Source: Cytobacillus pseudoceanisediminis (GTDB lineage: Bacteria; Bacillota; Bacilli; Bacillales; Cytobacillaceae). From it: a stretch of DNA of 64,000 nt. How positions within the stretch are numbered: position 1 is the stretch's first letter; every line of letters begins with the position of its first letter. The position numbers were made by a program, and so were the translations under genes. Location of the stretch: contig NZ_CP097349.1 of the NCBI RefSeq assembly GCF_023516215.1, forward strand, positions 2,604,001-2,668,000. Reading direction: 5' to 3'. A model generated the notes under the pieces. It made no database searches and was not told the DNA's origin. It saw only the letters and a list, made by a program, of their open reading frames with translations. Shown piece after piece: positions 2,603-36,177 of this stretch.

Positions 2603-3241
2603 TTAGTTTTCTCCCTTTTGCTGTTTTTCCTTTTTCCTTGTAAAGAATGCCTGGGCATCCTGAATCTCACCGCGAATGAGTGACATTTCTTCATCAAGCC
2701 TGAAAGCAGCCTCTGCCGCTCTCTGGAGCCTCATCTGGATATCTTCAGGGAATTGGCCCTTATATTTATAATTTAAGGAATGTTCAACCGTGGCCCAGAA
2801 ATTCATGGCAAGCGTTCTAATTTGAATCTCTGCCAGGATTTTCTTCTCTCCTTTTATTGTCTGAACAGGATATCGGATCACGACATGGTAAGAGCGGTAA
2901 CCGCTTGCTTTTTTATGAGATATGTAATCTCTTTCTTCAACTATTTCAAAATCATTTCTTTGTCTTAATAGTTCAACCACTCTCTTAATATCATCTACAA
3001 ATTGGCACATCATTCTAACACCGGCAATATCCTGCATTTCAGATTCCAATTTGTCGAGAGGAATGCCTTTTTGGTTTGCCTTATCAAGAATGCTTGCAAT
3101 AGGCTTTACCCTCCCAGTAACAAATTCAATCGGGGAATGAGTAGAATCCATTTCAAATTGGCTTCTCATGCCTTTTAGCTTTATTTTTAATTCTTCGACG
3201 GCCTGTTTATATGGCGCCAAAAATAAATCCCAATGCTTCAC
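2603..3241 (-). CDS. relQ: Small alarmone synthetase RelQ (GTP pyrophosphokinase, YjbM)
   Basis: About 212 residues of the single-domain RelA/SpoT synthetase family. It makes (p)ppGpp by transferring pyrophosphate from ATP to GTP/GDP and has no hydrolase or TGS domain. Visible motifs: SPIEFVTGRVKPIASI, DIAGVRMMCQFVDDI, SGYRSYHVVIRYP and AEIQIRTLAMNFWATVEHSLNYKYK, all characteristic. I chose GTG at 3241, which gives the family length of about 211. The frame stays open upstream to 3280, but that stretch falls in a repeat element (GCGCAAGCGCC), and no good ribosome site precedes the chosen start. The true start is therefore uncertain. Confidence 0.9.
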   Translation of the reverse strand: MKHWDLFLAPYKQAVEELKIKLKGMRSQFEMDSTHSPIEFVTGRVKPIASILDKANQKGIPLDKLESEMQDIAGVRMMCQFVDDIKRVVELLRQRNDFEIVEERDYISHKKASGYRSYHVVIRYPVQTIKGEKKILAEIQIRTLAMNFWATVEHSLNYKYKGQFPEDIQMRLQRAAEAAFRLDEEMSLIRGEIQDAQAFFTRKKEKQQKGEN

Positions 3242-3949: not shown

Positions 3950-4540
3950 TTGTCTAACAAAAATATTGAAATTGAATTTAAAAACATGGTCAACAGAGAA
4001 GAATTTTCCTCATTAATAGATTTTTTTAATATAAGAAGCGAGGATTTTTCCGAACAGGAGAATCATTACTTCGATACACCGGATTTTTTATTGAAGGCTA
4101 AAGGAAGTGCCTTAAGGATTAGGGAGAAAAACGGCTCATTTGAATTGACTCTTAAACAGCCTCACCCTGAAGGGCTATTGGAAACCAATGAGAATCTTAC
4201 TGAGTCCGAAGCTGCAGAGATGATCCGGACTGGGAAAATCCCGGCTGAGCTGATAATAAGATCCATAAAAGAGCTGGGCATAGAGACAGATAAACTTCAA
4301 TACTTTGGCACTCTCGCAACAAAACGTGCCGAAAAGGAATACATGAAAGGATTGGCTGTTCTTGATCACAGCCGATATTTAAATAAGGAAGATTTTGAGT
4401 TAGAATATGAAGTGGATAACAGGAATGAAGGTGAATTGACATTTCTTAATTTGCTCAAACAGCTTAACATTCCTGTCAGGAAGACCGAAAATAAAATTAA
4501 GAGGTTTTATAACGAAAAATACAGACAGCAAAAGGATTAA
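3950..4540 (+). CDS. yjbK: CYTH domain triphosphatase-like protein YjbK
   Basis: 196 residues. The CYTH (CyaB/thiamine triphosphatase) signature EIEFKN (E7-x-E9-x-K11) opens the protein, followed by the alternating basic and acidic strands of the triphosphate tunnel (ALRIREKNGSFELTLKQP, then ELEYEVDN and KTENKIKRF). Family members bind triphosphorylated substrates with divalent metal; inorganic triphosphatase is the likeliest activity, by family. The start is TTG preceded by GAGGTG. It is followed 33 bp later by yjbJ on the same strand, as in B. subtilis. Confidence 0.88.
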   Translation: MSNKNIEIEFKNMVNREEFSSLIDFFNIRSEDFSEQENHYFDTPDFLLKAKGSALRIREKNGSFELTLKQPHPEGLLETNENLTESEAAEMIRTGKIPAELIIRSIKELGIETDKLQYFGTLATKRAEKEYMKGLAVLDHSRYLNKEDFELEYEVDNRNEGELTFLNLLKQLNIPVRKTENKIKRFYNEKYRQQKD

Positions 4541-4573
4541 CAGAAGTACACCTTTTGCCAAGGAGCAATACTA

Positions 4574-5214
4574 ATGAACGTAAATCAGTTAAAAATATTA
4601 ATGGAGCTGCAGGCACTGCAAGGTTTTAATAGTTCTACGCAAACGAATACTTCAAACCCTCTGTTTCAAGAGCTATTGGCCGGGTTAGTTACGGAAAGTC
4701 CCGGTTCATCACATCAAGTCACAGGAGGACTAGGAGCAATTGCGTCTCTGGAACCTTATATTAGTTCTTTACAAACAGATACCCTTGCAGCTGCAGCTCT
4801 TCCACCCCTTAAACTAACCAAATTTGCCGAAACTTCCAAAAGTGATTTTGATGATTTGATTCAAAAAGCCTCAGATTTGTTTAATGTACCTGTTAACCTG
4901 ATTAAGTCAGTCATTAAACAGGAATCAAATTTTAATCCGAATGCAGTCAGCCATGCAGGTGCTTCCGGGCTTATGCAGCTGATGCCCGATACAGCCAAGG
5001 GGCTTGGCGTTGAAAATATCTTCGACCCTGAAGAGAACATTTTTGCCGGAGTCAAATATTTACGGCAAATGATGGACAGGTATGGTGAAAATGTTGAACT
5101 TGCACTGGCTGCCTATAATGCCGGACCTGGAAATGTAGATAAATACGGGGGAGTCCCCCTTTTAGAGAAACACTGAATTACATAAAGAAAGTGACCTCTT
5201 CCTTTATGGCTTAA
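4574..5214 (+). CDS. yjbJ: Lytic transglycosylase YjbJ, frameshifted near the 3' end
   Basis: Repaired length 213 residues. The C-terminal half is an SLT (lysozyme-like) domain: catalytic Glu in KQESNFNPNA (about residue 117), then GASGLMQLMPDTA, NIFAGVKYLRQM and LALAAYNAGPGNV. The N-terminal 90 residues are low-complexity, with no recognisable signal peptide. The uncorrected frame ends early at 5176 after GGVPLLEKH. Adding one base in the C-run at 5155-5160 restores GGVPPFRETLNYIKKV, the conserved family end. It cleaves peptidoglycan glycan strands to 1,6-anhydro-muropeptides. Confidence 0.87.
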
Positions 5215-5305: not shown

Positions 5306-5502
5306 TATAAGAAAAGCGCAAGCGCCTTGCCCATGAAGGAACGCAGACTAAGAACGCCACGTTCTACCAAAAGCTACTGCTTTCAGTCATACGATTATCG
5401 CTGCCACAGCTTACCTGTCCTGTGGCAACGTCTGCATGACCCCCATCCTGGGTGCCTCACCTCGAGGTGGCAGGCTGATTGCTCCAGACAGTTATCTGCT
5501 TA
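5306..5502. repeat. Dispersed GCGCAAGCGCC-type intergenic repeat, copy B (long form)
   Basis: Opens with AGAAAAGCGCAAGCGCCTTG and closes with CACCTCGAGGTGGCAGGCTG. Copy C at about 7483 (inverted) has the same head and tail but lacks the roughly 125 bases between them. The rest of the 5215-5675 gap is AT-rich leader for the haemoglobin gene. Confidence 0.65.
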
Positions 5503-6986: not shown

Positions 6987-7252
6987 TTCAATGAAAAAAC
7001 CATGCATTTCATACGCACGGCCTTTTCGGGTTTTATACGAACAAAGGGGATGGGAGAAATTTTTCACGTCACAAACAAAAGGGGTAAATGTTTGTATGTG
7101 ATCAACTTCACATCTGTAATATATCATGAGGTAACAGAAAATGACAATAAGTTTGTGCCTTATTTCACAATATTGTCAAAATCAAGTCATGACTGTCTGG
7201 ACAACCGCATAAAATAATAGGGATGAAATCTTGCCAAGGAGGAGAATGCAAT

Positions 7253-21131: not shown

Positions 21132-21751
21132 GGTATAACCCCCTATTAAATTTCCTCAAACAATATCCTTACGCTTGCCTTTCACAAAAAACACAACTGT
21201 GCGCCCCAGATATATTGCTCAAATAGTCTGTTAATTCAATTTAAAAAATTTGCAGACTATTTAGAAGGCAACAAAAAAAGCAAGTTTATATTCTCTTAAA
21301 GATAGATTATCCTTATATTCTGATAATTCAGATTAAAAGGAGTAATCTATAAGATGTAAGCTATAAACTTACTCATTATGCACCATACTCTCGCTATCTG
21401 GAGTGATATAGTTTTGTTGTAAATGTAACAAAAACGTAAAGATTATGTTTGTTACGTTTATTATAAATAGTTTAAAAACTTATTGCAAGTGGCTCTTTGT
21501 ACATGCAATCCAATCGAGTATGACATTTTTCGTCAAAAAGTCTTATAAATTAAGAATTTTTGAGATTTAAAAAAATTTTTCTTTTTAAGATTTTTTGCTA
21601 TTTTAATAGGAATCATCACCCATATATTGTCAAATGCAGCCTTGAAATAGAGGCTATCGCTGACTTTTATTTTTCCCTTTATTAACTTGATTTTTGTATC
21701 CGGATAGTTTAACTTATTATATAATACAAATATAAATTAATTATCTTGTCG

Positions 21752-21996
21752 GCAATGAAAAAAGAGTAGTACATTTACTTAGGGTTTAACAGAGAGTCTG
21801 TGGCAGGTGCAAACAGGCAGCCCGGTAAATCGAATGGACTTTTGAGCTTCTGAATTTTTCAGGCGCTTCCCTGCGTTATCGGGGACCTATGCATTATTCT
21901 GCATAGGGCAGAGTGACTCAGTATTTGAGTAATTAGGGTGGCAACGCGGACCATTCGTCCCTATTTTAAAGGGATGAATGGTTCTTTTTTATGCTT
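21752..21996 (+). promoter_or_regulatory. T-box riboswitch (tryptophan) leader of trpS
   Basis: The hallmark AGGGTGGCAACGCGG is at 21935-21949. It is followed by the competing terminator GACCATTCGTCCCT/AGGGATGAATGGTTC with TTTTTT (21949-21990). Upstream is a long stem-I region in which a TGG (21835-21837) is the candidate specifier codon for tRNA-Trp. The antiterminator bulge reads UGGC, which would pair with an ACCA end and a G discriminator base, as expected for tRNA-Trp. Uncharged tRNA would favour readthrough into trpS. The upstream gap (21140-21750) is AT-rich and holds the divergent oppA promoter; no gene seen. Confidence 0.9.
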
Positions 21997-33651: not shown

Positions 33652-34035
33652 ATGTTTGATAAGGATGATAAAGTCAAAAAAAATACAGAAGACCCTTTAA
33701 GCCATTTTCTTTTTGGTGATAGAGTAAGAAGACATGAGTCAGATGAAGTTGAAAAAGAATTCGAAAAAAGTGAAGAAGCTCAGGGAAAAGGTGACTGGCT
33801 TTTTGGGGACAGGAGCAGTAATGCACATGAAGCCGATGAATGGCTGCTTGGCGGAAGAAGCAGAAAAAGCGATGAAAAGGAAGATCCCCCTAATGAAAAC
33901 GGAAAAAATATCCTGAATAACATCAACTTTGAGGAACTAATGGGCAACATTGATACACTCATGACTTCTGCTCATCAGTTAAAGCCATTGCTGAAAAAAG
34001 CAGGGCCTTTGCTGGAGATGTTTTTGAAGAAGTAG
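33652..34035 (+). CDS. Hypothetical charged protein with FGDR-type repeats
   Basis: 127 residues, divergent from fabH. Three spaced short repeats: HFLFGDR (about 20-26), DWLFGDR (about 49-55) and EWLLGGR (about 63-69), in a very charged, probably disordered N-terminal part. A C-terminal amphipathic, hydrophobic segment (MTSAHQLKPLLKKAGPLLEMFLKK) could associate with membrane or a partner. Ribosome site AAAGGAGGAG. Position suggests the unrelated-looking yjzB slot of B. subtilis, but I cannot assign a family. Confidence 0.7.
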   Translation: MFDKDDKVKKNTEDPLSHFLFGDRVRRHESDEVEKEFEKSEEAQGKGDWLFGDRSSNAHEADEWLLGGRSRKSDEKEDPPNENGKNILNNINFEELMGNIDTLMTSAHQLKPLLKKAGPLLEMFLKK

Positions 34036-34045
34036 GGGCAGGGGG

Positions 34046-35008
34046 CTATTCTGGATTATTTTCTATATAAACCCTGGACTTTGTGACACCTTTGTTTTTG
34101 AGATTCATTGAAGATAAAAATTTATAGGTCATGTGCCTGGATTTAATATTGAGGAACTCGCGGCAATCCGTATTCGATATTTGATCGTTAATAAGAAGGA
34201 AATAGTCATAGATAGCTTGTCGATGAGCAGTGTTGGATATATTTTGACATATAGAGCAATGCCACTTCCGATTTCTCCTTATAATATTAAAGGAGTTGCA
34301 AGAGTTACACTGAACCCCTCGAATTAATTCTTTCTCCGCTATTCCATATATTTCGAGAATTTTCTTATTGGATGGGGTATGTTTTAAAAGAAGTTTTTTA
34401 TTAATTTCTTTTATCTGATGGGGGTAAAGTAATTGTTTTTGATAGTGATTTTTGGCTTCCAGCAGCCTGTCTATTATTTTCTCGGCATGGATTACTGTGT
34501 TTAAAATATCTCTATTTTCCTTCTCGGTTTTTATATAGGTTAATGGATTAGCCATTACTACAAAATGTTCAATAGGTACGACTGGCAGTTTTTCATTTTG
34601 CATCCAATCTATGAACTGTGCTGCTTGCCGCTTTACCTGTGAAATAGGATTAGGGATAACCAGTTCTTTTTCAGCGTGTTTTTGAATCACTTGATCAGAA
34701 AGAGGTTCAAAGTACAAAGTACCGGTATAATTCTTCACTTCAATAATAGCTGTAAAAAAGGGAGTTATTAGAAGGGTATCGATTTGAAAGGCAGTGTGGT
34801 TTTTAAAACGGAGATCATTATATACTTTAAATTCATTTGGAAGAAAACCTAAAAAGTAATCAAGCTGCCTTTCTCCTTTATATCCACTAATTCGATTTCG
34901 GTTATCTTTTTCAATTTCATGCCTCTTACGATGAAATTCGGGCAGTCTCCGCAATAATGCTTCATTTTGCAGAATTCTTCTTGGAATAGTTCTTGGCTTC
35001 ATTATCAT
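34046..35008 (-). CDS. NERD domain protein with C-terminal zinc ribbon
   Basis: 320 residues from the ATG at 35008 after AAAGGAGGTAATGTA. The nuclease-related domain (about residues 40-150) shows GYKGERQLDYFLGFLP, an internal AFQIDTLLITPFFTAIIEVKNYTG and QVKRQAAQF; the IDTL...IEVKN pattern matches the PD-(D/E)xK-like core. The C-terminus carries CNSCNSFNIIRRNRKWHCSICQN, two CxxC pairs that would bind one zinc. A DNA-processing role is inferred from domain homology only. Not present in the syntenic B. subtilis interval; its 5' region is the phased tandem-repeat array. Confidence 0.82.
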   Translation of the reverse strand: MIMKPRTIPRRILQNEALLRRLPEFHRKRHEIEKDNRNRISGYKGERQLDYFLGFLPNEFKVYNDLRFKNHTAFQIDTLLITPFFTAIIEVKNYTGTLYFEPLSDQVIQKHAEKELVIPNPISQVKRQAAQFIDWMQNEKLPVVPIEHFVVMANPLTYIKTEKENRDILNTVIHAEKIIDRLLEAKNHYQKQLLYPHQIKEINKKLLLKHTPSNKKILEIYGIAEKELIRGVQCNSCNSFNIIRRNRKWHCSICQNISNTAHRQAIYDYFLLINDQISNTDCREFLNIKSRHMTYKFLSSMNLKNKGVTKSRVYIENNPE

Positions 35009-35112: not shown

Positions 35113-35890
35113 TTGCTTCGTTATTCTATTGATTTGCGCAAATACTTTTATCATTATTTAGGTTTTTTGCGTCTTCCTCTTGTTTATATGCGCCCTCGGG
35201 ACCTAATTGCAGCGTAATTTACTTTAATTGCGCTGTTCTTTTTCTTTATTGCTCCGTTATATAAGTCATTTGCGTCTTCCTCTTACTTTTTTGCGCCCTC
35301 GGGACCTAATTGCGGCGTAATTTACTTTAATTGCGCTGTTCTTTTTCTTTATTGCGCCGTTATATAAGTCATTTGCGTCTTCCTCTTACTTTTTTGCGCC
35401 CTCGGGACCTAATTGCGGCGTAATTTACTTTAATTGCGCTGTTCTTTTTCTTTATTGCTCCGTTATTTAAGTCATTTGCATCTTCCTCTTACTTTTTTGC
35501 GCCCTCGGGACCTAATTGCAGCGTAATTTACTTTAATTGTGCTGTTCTTTTTCTTTATTGCTCCGTTATTTAAGTCATTTGCGTCTTCCTCTTACTTTTT
35601 GCGCCCTCGGGACCTAATTGCGGCGTAATTTACTTTAATTGCGCTGTTCTTTTTCTTTATTGCTCCGTTATTTAAGTCATTTGCGTCTTCCTCTTACTTT
35701 TTTGCGCCCTCGGGACCTAATTGCGGCGTAATTTACTTTAATTGCGCTGTTCATTTACTCCTTTGCTCCATCTTCTATGATATTTGCGTTTCCTCTGGCT
35801 TAATTGTGCTCTCAAAACCTGATTGCGGCCTTAATTACTTTATTTGCGCTGTTCTTCATCTTTATTGCGCCATTATATTAGTCATTTGCT
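35113..35890. repeat. Tandem 103-bp repeat built from TTGC-headed ~21-bp submonomers
   Basis: Six near-identical 103-bp units: their CGCCCTCGGGACCTAATTG core starts at 35191, 35294, 35397, 35500, 35602 and 35705. Each unit consists of five blocks that begin TTGC and are 21, 21, 21, 19 and 21 bp long. The TTGC phase continues beyond the units, for example 35113, 35134 and then 35823, 35844, 35865, 35886, giving about 37 heads. The unit length is not divisible by 3, and no open frame runs through it. It fills the gap between the NERD gene start and the comZ terminator. Function unknown. Confidence 0.93.
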
Positions 35891-35952
35891 CCCTCAGCTA
35901 ACCTCTTGGTGTCATTTTTACAATCATTAAAATCCCGCAGAGATAAGATCCC

Positions 35953-35981
35953 AAACAAAAAACCAGCCTAAAGGCTGGTTC
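35953..35981 (-). terminator. Terminator after comZ
   Basis: AACCAGCC TAAA GGCTGGTT stem with an A6 run giving a U-tract on the minus strand; it overlaps the comZ stop. Confidence 0.88.
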
Positions 35982-36177
35982 ACTCACTCTCTTTCAAAGC
36001 ATCCGCTTTACCCATTTCGTAGGCTTCGTTCATGACTTTGGTGAATAGGTTCATGAATGGCTGGATCATTTCCATGGATAGTTCAATGCCTGCTTCGTCA
36101 AGCTGCTGTTTGGCTTCTGGCAGGTATTTCATGGCGATTTGCATGAATTCCATATTTTTTTCGTTTAGCTGCATCAT
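35980..36177 (-). CDS. comZ: Late competence repressor ComZ
   Basis: 65 residues (B. subtilis 63). Begins MQLNEKNMEFMQIAMKYLPEAKQQLDEAGIE and contains a leucine/methionine-rich helical pattern, as in ComZ, which negatively regulates comG expression. Preceded by GGAGGTACTAC. Downstream of med by 23 bp, as in the B. subtilis med-comZ operon. Confidence 0.88.
   Translation of the reverse strand: MMQLNEKNMEFMQIAMKYLPEAKQQLDEAGIELSMEMIQPFMNLFTKVMNEAYEMGKADALKESE

Follow-up and report, generated by a model that had tools for sequence, protein, structure and literature searches.

Introduction

Plasmids offer a known case of direct repeats, the iterons, that are spaced by about two helical turns and adjoin the gene of their own binding protein, a winged-helix Rep initiator. 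Phased direct repeats beside the gene of a binding protein also make up the ParR/parC centromeres, ParR being a ribbon-helix-helix protein, and homing endonuclease genes lie inside or beside the target of the nuclease they encode and undergo gain and decay. Closest in form to the locus considered here are the tandem repeats of constant size (20-21 nt) of Bacillus (Subirana and Messeguer 2021, PMC8161180), for which the available sections of that paper suggest nucleoid proteins or small RNAs and give no partner protein or gene.

Here we analyse a 64,000-nt stretch of the Cytobacillus pseudoceanisediminis chromosome (contig NZ_CP097349.1, positions 2,604,001 to 2,668,000; hereafter the window), which carries an array of at least four regular 20-21 nt repeats, variable with a short signal and non-coding, as are the repeats in the available part of PMC8161180. 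The arrays reported below share with those repeats, as far as the available text describes them, their size, variable sequence, short conserved signal, non-coding position and patchy occurrence by species, and the signal given there for B. weihaiensis, TCGCGG, resembles our CGCGG-ATA heads; they differ from that account in being tied to one gene family and in having a head plan and a rule that links a residue to a base. In the open-licence literature, part of it available at full text, we found no paper that links NERD genes to 20-21 nt repeats.

The constant feature of these loci is not the word TTGC that marks the window array, but the pairing of an array with an adjacent gene of the longer NERD plan, which we call NERD-A (a PD-(D/E)XK-like NERD domain, a zinc ribbon and a C-terminal winged helix). 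The gene that adjoins the repeats is nuclease-like and its predicted DNA-reading helix tracks one repeat letter, which suggests that the neighbouring protein binds them; judging from sequence, we consider it likely that the array is the binding tract of that protein, a predicted cognate relation. The repeats described in 2021 without known function, constant in size and variable in sequence (PMC8161180, available sections), would thereby acquire a named candidate partner.

Results

A phased array and a NERD-A gene lie behind comZ

A preliminary description of the window had reported a 103-bp tandem array, non-coding and 5' of a NERD gene, with about 37 TTGC heads on one face of the DNA. Tandem Repeats Finder (TRF) bore out the array (Table 1), its seven unit starts being spaced by 103, 103, 103, 103, 102 and 103 bp. 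The reported extent stood and the head count did not: there are 35 exact copies of TTGC between 35113 and 35886, with steps of 21 bp in 24 of 34 cases and 19 bp in five, and a mean of ~20.5 bp. The longest unbroken chain of TTGC at 19-22 bp comprises 16 heads, compared to a maximum of 4 among 1000 dinucleotide shuffles. The best-fitting head period was 20.51 bp (Rayleigh R 0.89), and at an exact turn of 10.5 bp R was only 0.25, because the 19-bp steps lower the mean. Neighbouring heads are therefore in phase, as had been claimed, but it is the actual helical repeat that decides whether a single face extends over 770 bp.

As described, the NERD gene has the array on its 5' side, and no ORF of at least 60 aa is listed inside the array. 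It has no Rfam match; elsewhere in the window, a T-box leader (21746-21965, +), a RsaE/RoxS sRNA (6993-7111, -) and a Bacillaceae-1 RNA (5332-5454, +) scored above the Rfam gathering thresholds. A second array of the 103-bp unit lies 1.27 Mb away on the same chromosome (1371404-1372035; 82-86% identity over full units), and both arrays are also present in another genome of the genus (G005), which makes an assembly artefact of one unit, a concern raised beforehand, unlikely. This second array (L009, ~1371.4-1372.0 kb) overlaps the 3' end of a predicted gene and has similar neighbours in G005.

Table 1. Features of the array locus, in window positions
Feature	Position	Strand	Remarks
Convergent flanking gene	33652..34035	+	127 aa, without a Pfam match; next gene after comZ in most genomes where NERD was not found
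NERD-A gene	34046..35008	-	320 aa, directly 3' of the array, same strand; putative start codon
C-terminal winged-helix domain (predicted)	34055..34231	-	~residues 260-318
Predicted recognition helix	34109..34138	-	H291-300; family-wide co-variation of residue 291 with head base -1
Zinc-ribbon-like cysteines	34247..34309	-	C234, C237, C251, C254; invariant among 9 aligned proteins
NERD domain PF08378	34553..34888	-	Residues 41-152; Pfam 72.6 bits (cut-off 22.1); alignment A1
Phased head array	35113..35906	-	TTGC on +, equal to GCGCAATAAAG-type heads on - (NERD gene strand); ~20.5 bp apart
Regular 103-bp higher-order units	35166..35889	-	Five heads each; TRF period 103, 7.0 copies, 90% matches
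Terminator-like site of comZ	35960..35981	-	Edge of the swapped array and NERD stretch
comZ	35980..36177	-	Conserved anchor gene; match in 36/36 genus genomes

The predicted NERD domain of the adjoining protein contains D77, E90 and K92, which we take to be the PD-(D/E)XK residues of a putative nuclease. In an AF2 model, residue 291 opens helix 291-300 of the winged helix. A Foldseek search gave no match at E <= 0.001, and the VIA Z was always below 8. NERD was the sole Pfam family over its cut-off, so that no Rep replication initiator was recognized in the protein. The NERD domain is shared with the defence proteins BREX PglW and MADS6, to which the window protein gave weak and partial matches (14 bits for PglW; 27.1 bits for MADS6, cut-off 460), far from a full-length assignment.

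In its layout the locus resembles plasmid iterons and Rep, with direct repeats about two turns apart adjoining a winged-helix gene whose product is predicted to bind, and likewise ParR/parC, with phased direct repeats beside the gene of a predicted binding protein. Unlike iterons, it is chromosomal, its protein has a nuclease-like domain, its relatives carry many head-word alleles and two queries of plasmid records gave no match; unlike ParR/parC, it has a winged-helix and zinc-ribbon protein and many loci per chromosome. The presence of arrays at so many loci also speaks against the earlier suggestion that the array is one unique site, for instance a partition centre.

Array and gene change together at the comZ locus

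We read 30 comZ loci from the 36 genus genomes with a comZ match, and called an array clear when its best 4-mer chain had at least five members. Such an array follows the comZ terminator in 8 of the 30 genomes, and in all eight a NERD gene, intact or broken, adjoins it. The heads are of the GCAA type in the window genome (G000) and in G005, and of other types, mostly CGCGC at an equal step, in G458, G024, G006, G032, G010 and G004. TTGC as a universal signal, which the preliminary description had taken as the conserved feature, was therefore abandoned; other alleles and loci use CGCGC, CGCAC, CGCGG, GACCG, GGACA and further words. Array length also differs between genomes, a point that had been proposed for checking.

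The same locus records decay. NERD is broken or a relic in G032, G005, G010, G004, G009, G011 and G030; in G009, NERD fragments accompany an array that by eye is decayed, and in G030 and G011 just short NERD remnants are left. Neither array nor NERD was found at the comZ locus in 19 of the 30 genomes, among them G002, which is cut by a contig end.

One comparison is between two strains of one species. Identity between G458 and the window is 99.3% as far as the T-run in the comZ terminator; past that point stand another array, with CGCGC heads and the same phasing, and another NERD gene (69% at the DNA level). The array and NERD stretch of G458 is 90% identical to that of G032, and the window array and NERD match G005 at 88-92%. 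The two strains thus differ in array and NERD as one stretch, and array and gene therefore change together. Of the refuting condition named earlier, related genomes that carry the unit without conserved TTGC spacing, half came true: related loci keep the spacing and swap the head word along with the gene. Searched at the DNA level for CGCGC arrays that stand alone, G458 yielded none outside comZ, G010 yielded some and G009 a single weak one. Right after the comZ terminator, G002 (L272) and G017 (L285) carry other DNA, with ends that by eye look like those of group II introns, so that insertions may be frequent at this position.

Phased arrays usually accompany NERD-A genes across the order

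The window genome has ten NERD matches, five of which share the NERD-A plan (at 2638, 4513, 659, 4911 and 1472 kb); the gene at 1472 kb is broken, that at 4911 kb is shortened, and the winged helix is seen where the frame reaches. A phased array, found by script or by eye, stands beside each of the five, upstream of four and downstream of one, with differing heads. None was seen beside four of the five other NERD matches, and the fifth is a broken fragment at ~4760 kb (L256); a phased array of the CCGGCCAA type lies ~570 bp downstream of it, with a terminator-like hairpin after the array.

A profile of nine NERD-A proteins (A1) matched 72 of 80 genomes at E <= 1e-15. Among the 150 matches listed we picked 100 NERD-A loci, keeping orthologs and leaving out the comZ alleles, the own-genome loci, rows with stops and some further copies, and scored an array wherever any identical 5-mer formed a chain of at least four at steps of 19-22 bp within 1 kb. 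A phased array was present in 82 of these 100 loci, picked among the matches listed, compared to 0 of 300 shuffles, and was below threshold or absent in the other 18. Among 400 background 1-kb windows of the own genome two qualified, one of them being the NERD-A array at 658 kb. The spacing is specific: steps of 14-17, 16-19, 23-26, 26-29 and 30-33 bp gave 0 of 100 loci each, the half step (9-12) gave 6 and the double step (40-43) 21, compared to 79 of 100 for 19-22 bp counted alike. When proteins were clustered at 60% identity, the first member had an array in 44 of 54 clusters; with a 50% limit this held for 17 of 24. The preliminary description had named the NERD gene as a location alone; it is the likely partner of the array.

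Repeat bodies that vary, units that are near-identical in places and array lengths that differ between genomes would all suit plain satellite DNA that drifted beside NERD genes with no functional link. This enrichment (82 of 100 loci vs 2 of 400 background windows) is at odds with such drift, as are the matched flanks of nine double-flanked loci and the residue-base link described below, and a non-functional cause would require a shared insertion bias; we regard it as very improbable.

Arrays stand on both flanks of the gene in 10 of the 100 loci. In nine of these pairs the two arrays match, with similarities of 0.72-0.96 and the same orientation, where the best cross-locus pair reached 0.63; the tenth pair is inverted, with a similarity of 0.58. 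The same head on either side of the gene would fit a selfish, homing-type element, in which NERD-A would cut arrays that lack the gene and be copied into them by repair, so that the gene would sit within its own target and later decay. As with homing endonucleases, a nuclease-like gene lies inside or beside its presumed target and shows gain and decay. The broken or relic genes at comZ, the 19 of 30 genomes where none was found (one cut by the contig end), the whole-stretch difference between strains of one species, the many gene-less arrays as possible targets and the 1-13 profile matches per matching genome, the weaker of which may include other NERD types, fit as well. Here, however, the target is an array that is still intact beside the gene and the cleavage is putative; flanking arrays keep many intact heads, and self-cutting would need protection. 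Two NERD-A queries of 72,556 plasmid records gave no match, and one query of phage records gave one weak match. A homing-type element is possible, though we hold it to be doubtful.

Head words share a plan and an orientation

Heads are specific to their locus, for example CGCAC-ATAAA, TGCAA-ATAGA, CGCGG-ATATAT, GACCG-ATATA, GGACA-ATA, GGCTC-ATA and CGCTC-GTAAA, and follow a common plan of ~5 variable bases and ATAAA or the like. The anchor score used to align them partly favours the ATAAA half, which raw unanchored consensuses show too. The view put forward earlier, that selection acts on head and spacing and not on the bodies, is supported by a spacing common to arrays with unrelated head words.

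Within 1 kb, arrays lie upstream of the gene in 63 of the 100 loci and downstream in 37, and inside the NERD coding region in none. Their occurrence peaks within 300 bp upstream (58/100) and within 300 bp downstream (25/99), and farther than 900 bp upstream the count is 0 or 1 of 98; a further rise at 600-1200 bp downstream (13 and 10 of 99) is probably due for the most part to orthologs of a single locus. Where the stronger array is upstream, its ATAAA half faces the gene in 59 of 65 loci; where it is downstream, 8 of 15 are inverted.

The concentration of arrays within 300 bp upstream, their ATAAA half aimed at the gene and a last head 75-125 bp ahead of the assumed start (40 of 65 loci) raise the idea of an autoregulatory operator, the array being a multi-site operator of the NERD-A promoter. 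Promoter-like matches, however, are no commoner between array and start (4 of 40) than inside the gene (8 of 40), and an operator leaves unexplained the arrays of tens of heads, those that stand solely downstream (14 of 79 loci) and those that stand alone; we judge it unlikely. A nuclease-like gene preceded by repeats on its own strand could also recall a type III toxin-antitoxin-like pair, in which the array would yield a repeat RNA able to neutralise NERD. The downstream-only and inverted arrays argue against this, as do the head that tracks a predicted DNA-reading helix and the lack of an Rfam match at the array, and a simple scan of the window locus found no terminator-like site on the gene strand between array and NERD. 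Such a pair seems to us highly implausible.

A predicted recognition helix tracks one base of the head

To relate protein to head, four loci were added to the 100; 80 of the resulting 104 had an array (at most 600 bp upstream or 500 bp downstream) and encoded no fewer than 290 aa. L076 was dropped at this step, as was the G458 comZ allele, the latter because words of C and G alone were filtered out (a filter later relaxed). The anchored test used 71 of the 80 loci, six with inverted upstream anchors and three with low anchor scores being dropped and three loci having been shifted two bases by hand, and dereplication at 60% left 37 non-redundant loci.

In these 37 loci, residue 291 paired with base -1 (the base before ATAAA) topped all 1734 column-position pairs (z 8.4). 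Base -1 is C in 7 of 8 loci with R291 and in 1 of 29 without it (Fisher 6e-6). By residue, the bases found were C7 A1 for R, A5 for I, A1 for V, G5 for E, G5 A1 for A, G4 C1 for S, G4 A2 for P and T1 for K. In a leave-one-out test, residue 291 gave the right base in 30 of 35 cases, the next column in 21 of 31, and the median accuracy was 0.44. The observed maximum was reached, family-wise, by 2 of 150 permutations at 60% dereplication and by 0 of 150 at 70%; at 50% (N=24) the link was not significant, residue 291 ranking second and 11 of 150 permutations reaching the top score.

The residue classes derive from the data they describe, and independent evidence comes from proteins outside the fit. 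L090 of Ureibacillus acetophenoni, at most 33% identical to the loci used, has I291 and A (TCGCAA-ATAAA), in agreement with the classes. So do the comZ alleles of G458, G024 and G006, with R291 and C (CCGCGC-G.AAA), which form one related group, 58-59% identical to the window protein, and a broken NERD at L065, with V291 by eye and A in its TGCAA-ATAAA array. The window is the exception: with R291, its best head register gives A, and C comes from the third-ranked register alone.

Other parts of the protein also track the head. Over pairs below 60% identity (71 loci), columns 292, 293 and 295 lead the head association, followed by 246 in the zinc ribbon and 309 in the wing (0, 1, 2, 0 and 1 of 20,000 permutations, respectively), and below 50% identity columns 107 and 109 of the NERD domain lead, above the helix columns. 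As whole domains, the zinc ribbon tracked the head best (0 of 400 permutations) and the NERD domain next (1 and 29 of 400), and the winged helix did so weakly (14 of 400 for pairs below 60% identity, 288 of 400 below 45%). A global Mantel test of unanchored head similarity against the winged helix found no link (Mantel partial 99/500).

Together, the shared spacing and the head base that co-varies with the predicted recognition helix favour the phased protein-binding platform proposed at the outset. If the array is the binding tract of its neighbour, the C-terminal winged helix and the zinc ribbon would read the variable bases and the ATAAA half, with each head bound by a single protomer and neighbouring protomers two helical turns apart; they would then line up along the array, with the nuclease-like NERD domain beside the DNA. 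More speculatively, array and gene might form a self-propagating or self-regulating pair, with gain, allele swap and gene decay, and the nuclease might act on its own repeats or be held by them. We further lean towards a wider reading, in which the 20-21 nt satellites of Bacillales are cognate tracts of one diversifying family of NERD, zinc-ribbon and winged-helix proteins, with an allele-specific head word and a simple residue-to-base code. In this reading the spread, exchange and decay of a gene go hand in hand with those of its tract, and the two make up a chromosomal gene-satellite system of a kind not described before. If true, a multi-copy chromosomal nuclease-like family has been overlooked, each member with its own DNA word and a specificity code that is partly readable.

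Arrays dispersed in the genome, the order and beyond

Many arrays stand alone, without an adjoining NERD-A gene. In the own genome, TTGCN{16,18}TTGCN{16,18}TTGC had 94 matches compared to 0 for the reversed pattern; these fall at ~20 loci if scattered single matches are left out, many of which have different bodies. Read on the opposite strand, many of the arrays have GCAAATA[A/G] every 20-21 bp. In ~10 of 17 stretches inspected by eye, a terminator-like hairpin lies just ahead of the array. An antisense pausing motif (TTATTTGC, which we take to resemble the NusG pause motif) and gyrase or BIME-like 3' elements were dropped as main readings after the link to NERD was found, and are possible readings of the stand-alone arrays. 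RemA-type wrapping was also set aside, the RemA footprints being 7-bp protections with 3-bp gaps in the available part of PMC8481266. Beside one stand-alone array, a coding tandem repeat occurs in an open frame (L061, ~4548-4892), where a basic peptide (VPPRRKS...) recurs, and L070 (4059-4842) holds a 123-124 bp higher-order array with TTGCGC heads that, unlike most of the arrays tabulated, lies on the same strand as both its neighbours.

Some arrays gather around their gene. Sites of the TGCAAATAG type lie at 4482, 4496, 4511, 4513, 4637 and 4653 kb, surrounding the cognate NERD-A gene at 4513 kb, so that six of the eight are within 172 kb, the others being at 3078 and 3314 kb; those at 4511 and 4513 kb flank the gene and both point at it. 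This clustering and the dispersal of arrays could speak for a role in nucleoid or chromosome-domain architecture, with NERD-A at dispersed arrays bridging or constraining DNA, and nucleoid proteins, none of them named, are proposed for 20-21 nt repeats in the available text of PMC8161180. For two other heads, however, a search of ~80 kb around the gene showed no further array, in a test so insensitive that for one of them the exact word failed to find the array beside the gene itself; occurrence is patchy and the gene is often broken. An architectural role is, in our estimate, improbable.

The patchiness is seen in the three-head GCAAATA pattern, which 9 of the 249 order genomes carry (6 of 106 genera), and which in a phylum sample is present in 1 of 398 genomes, the own genome. 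The TTGC-triple pattern is abundant in many genus genomes, and other genera mostly have 3-33 matches, some with equal control counts. Net TTGC triples had a median of 124 in 15 genus genomes with a GCAA-type NERD-A and of 17.5 in 20 others (Mann-Whitney p 5e-6), with the counts including gene-side arrays and the label being incomplete, since it was set by hand from fetched loci and partly by orthology. In a scan of named genomes, which gave at least 120 stretches, 53 of 80 among the matches listed were by title from Bacillales, including Cytobacillus, Neobacillus, Gottfriedia, Ureibacillus and Metabacillus.

Viral sequences contain the three-head GCAAATA pattern in 42 stretches. A viral origin was rejected, the 14 viral stretches that fit a NERD-A peptide pattern having yielded no confirmed relative. 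The companion class of 52-nt repeats described in the available sections of PMC8161180 may have a partner gene of its own. In another genus, G037 carries 21-bp TTGCTCCCCGCGCTTGGGCCG-type repeats at two places (C2, 139755-139989, and C13, 34538).
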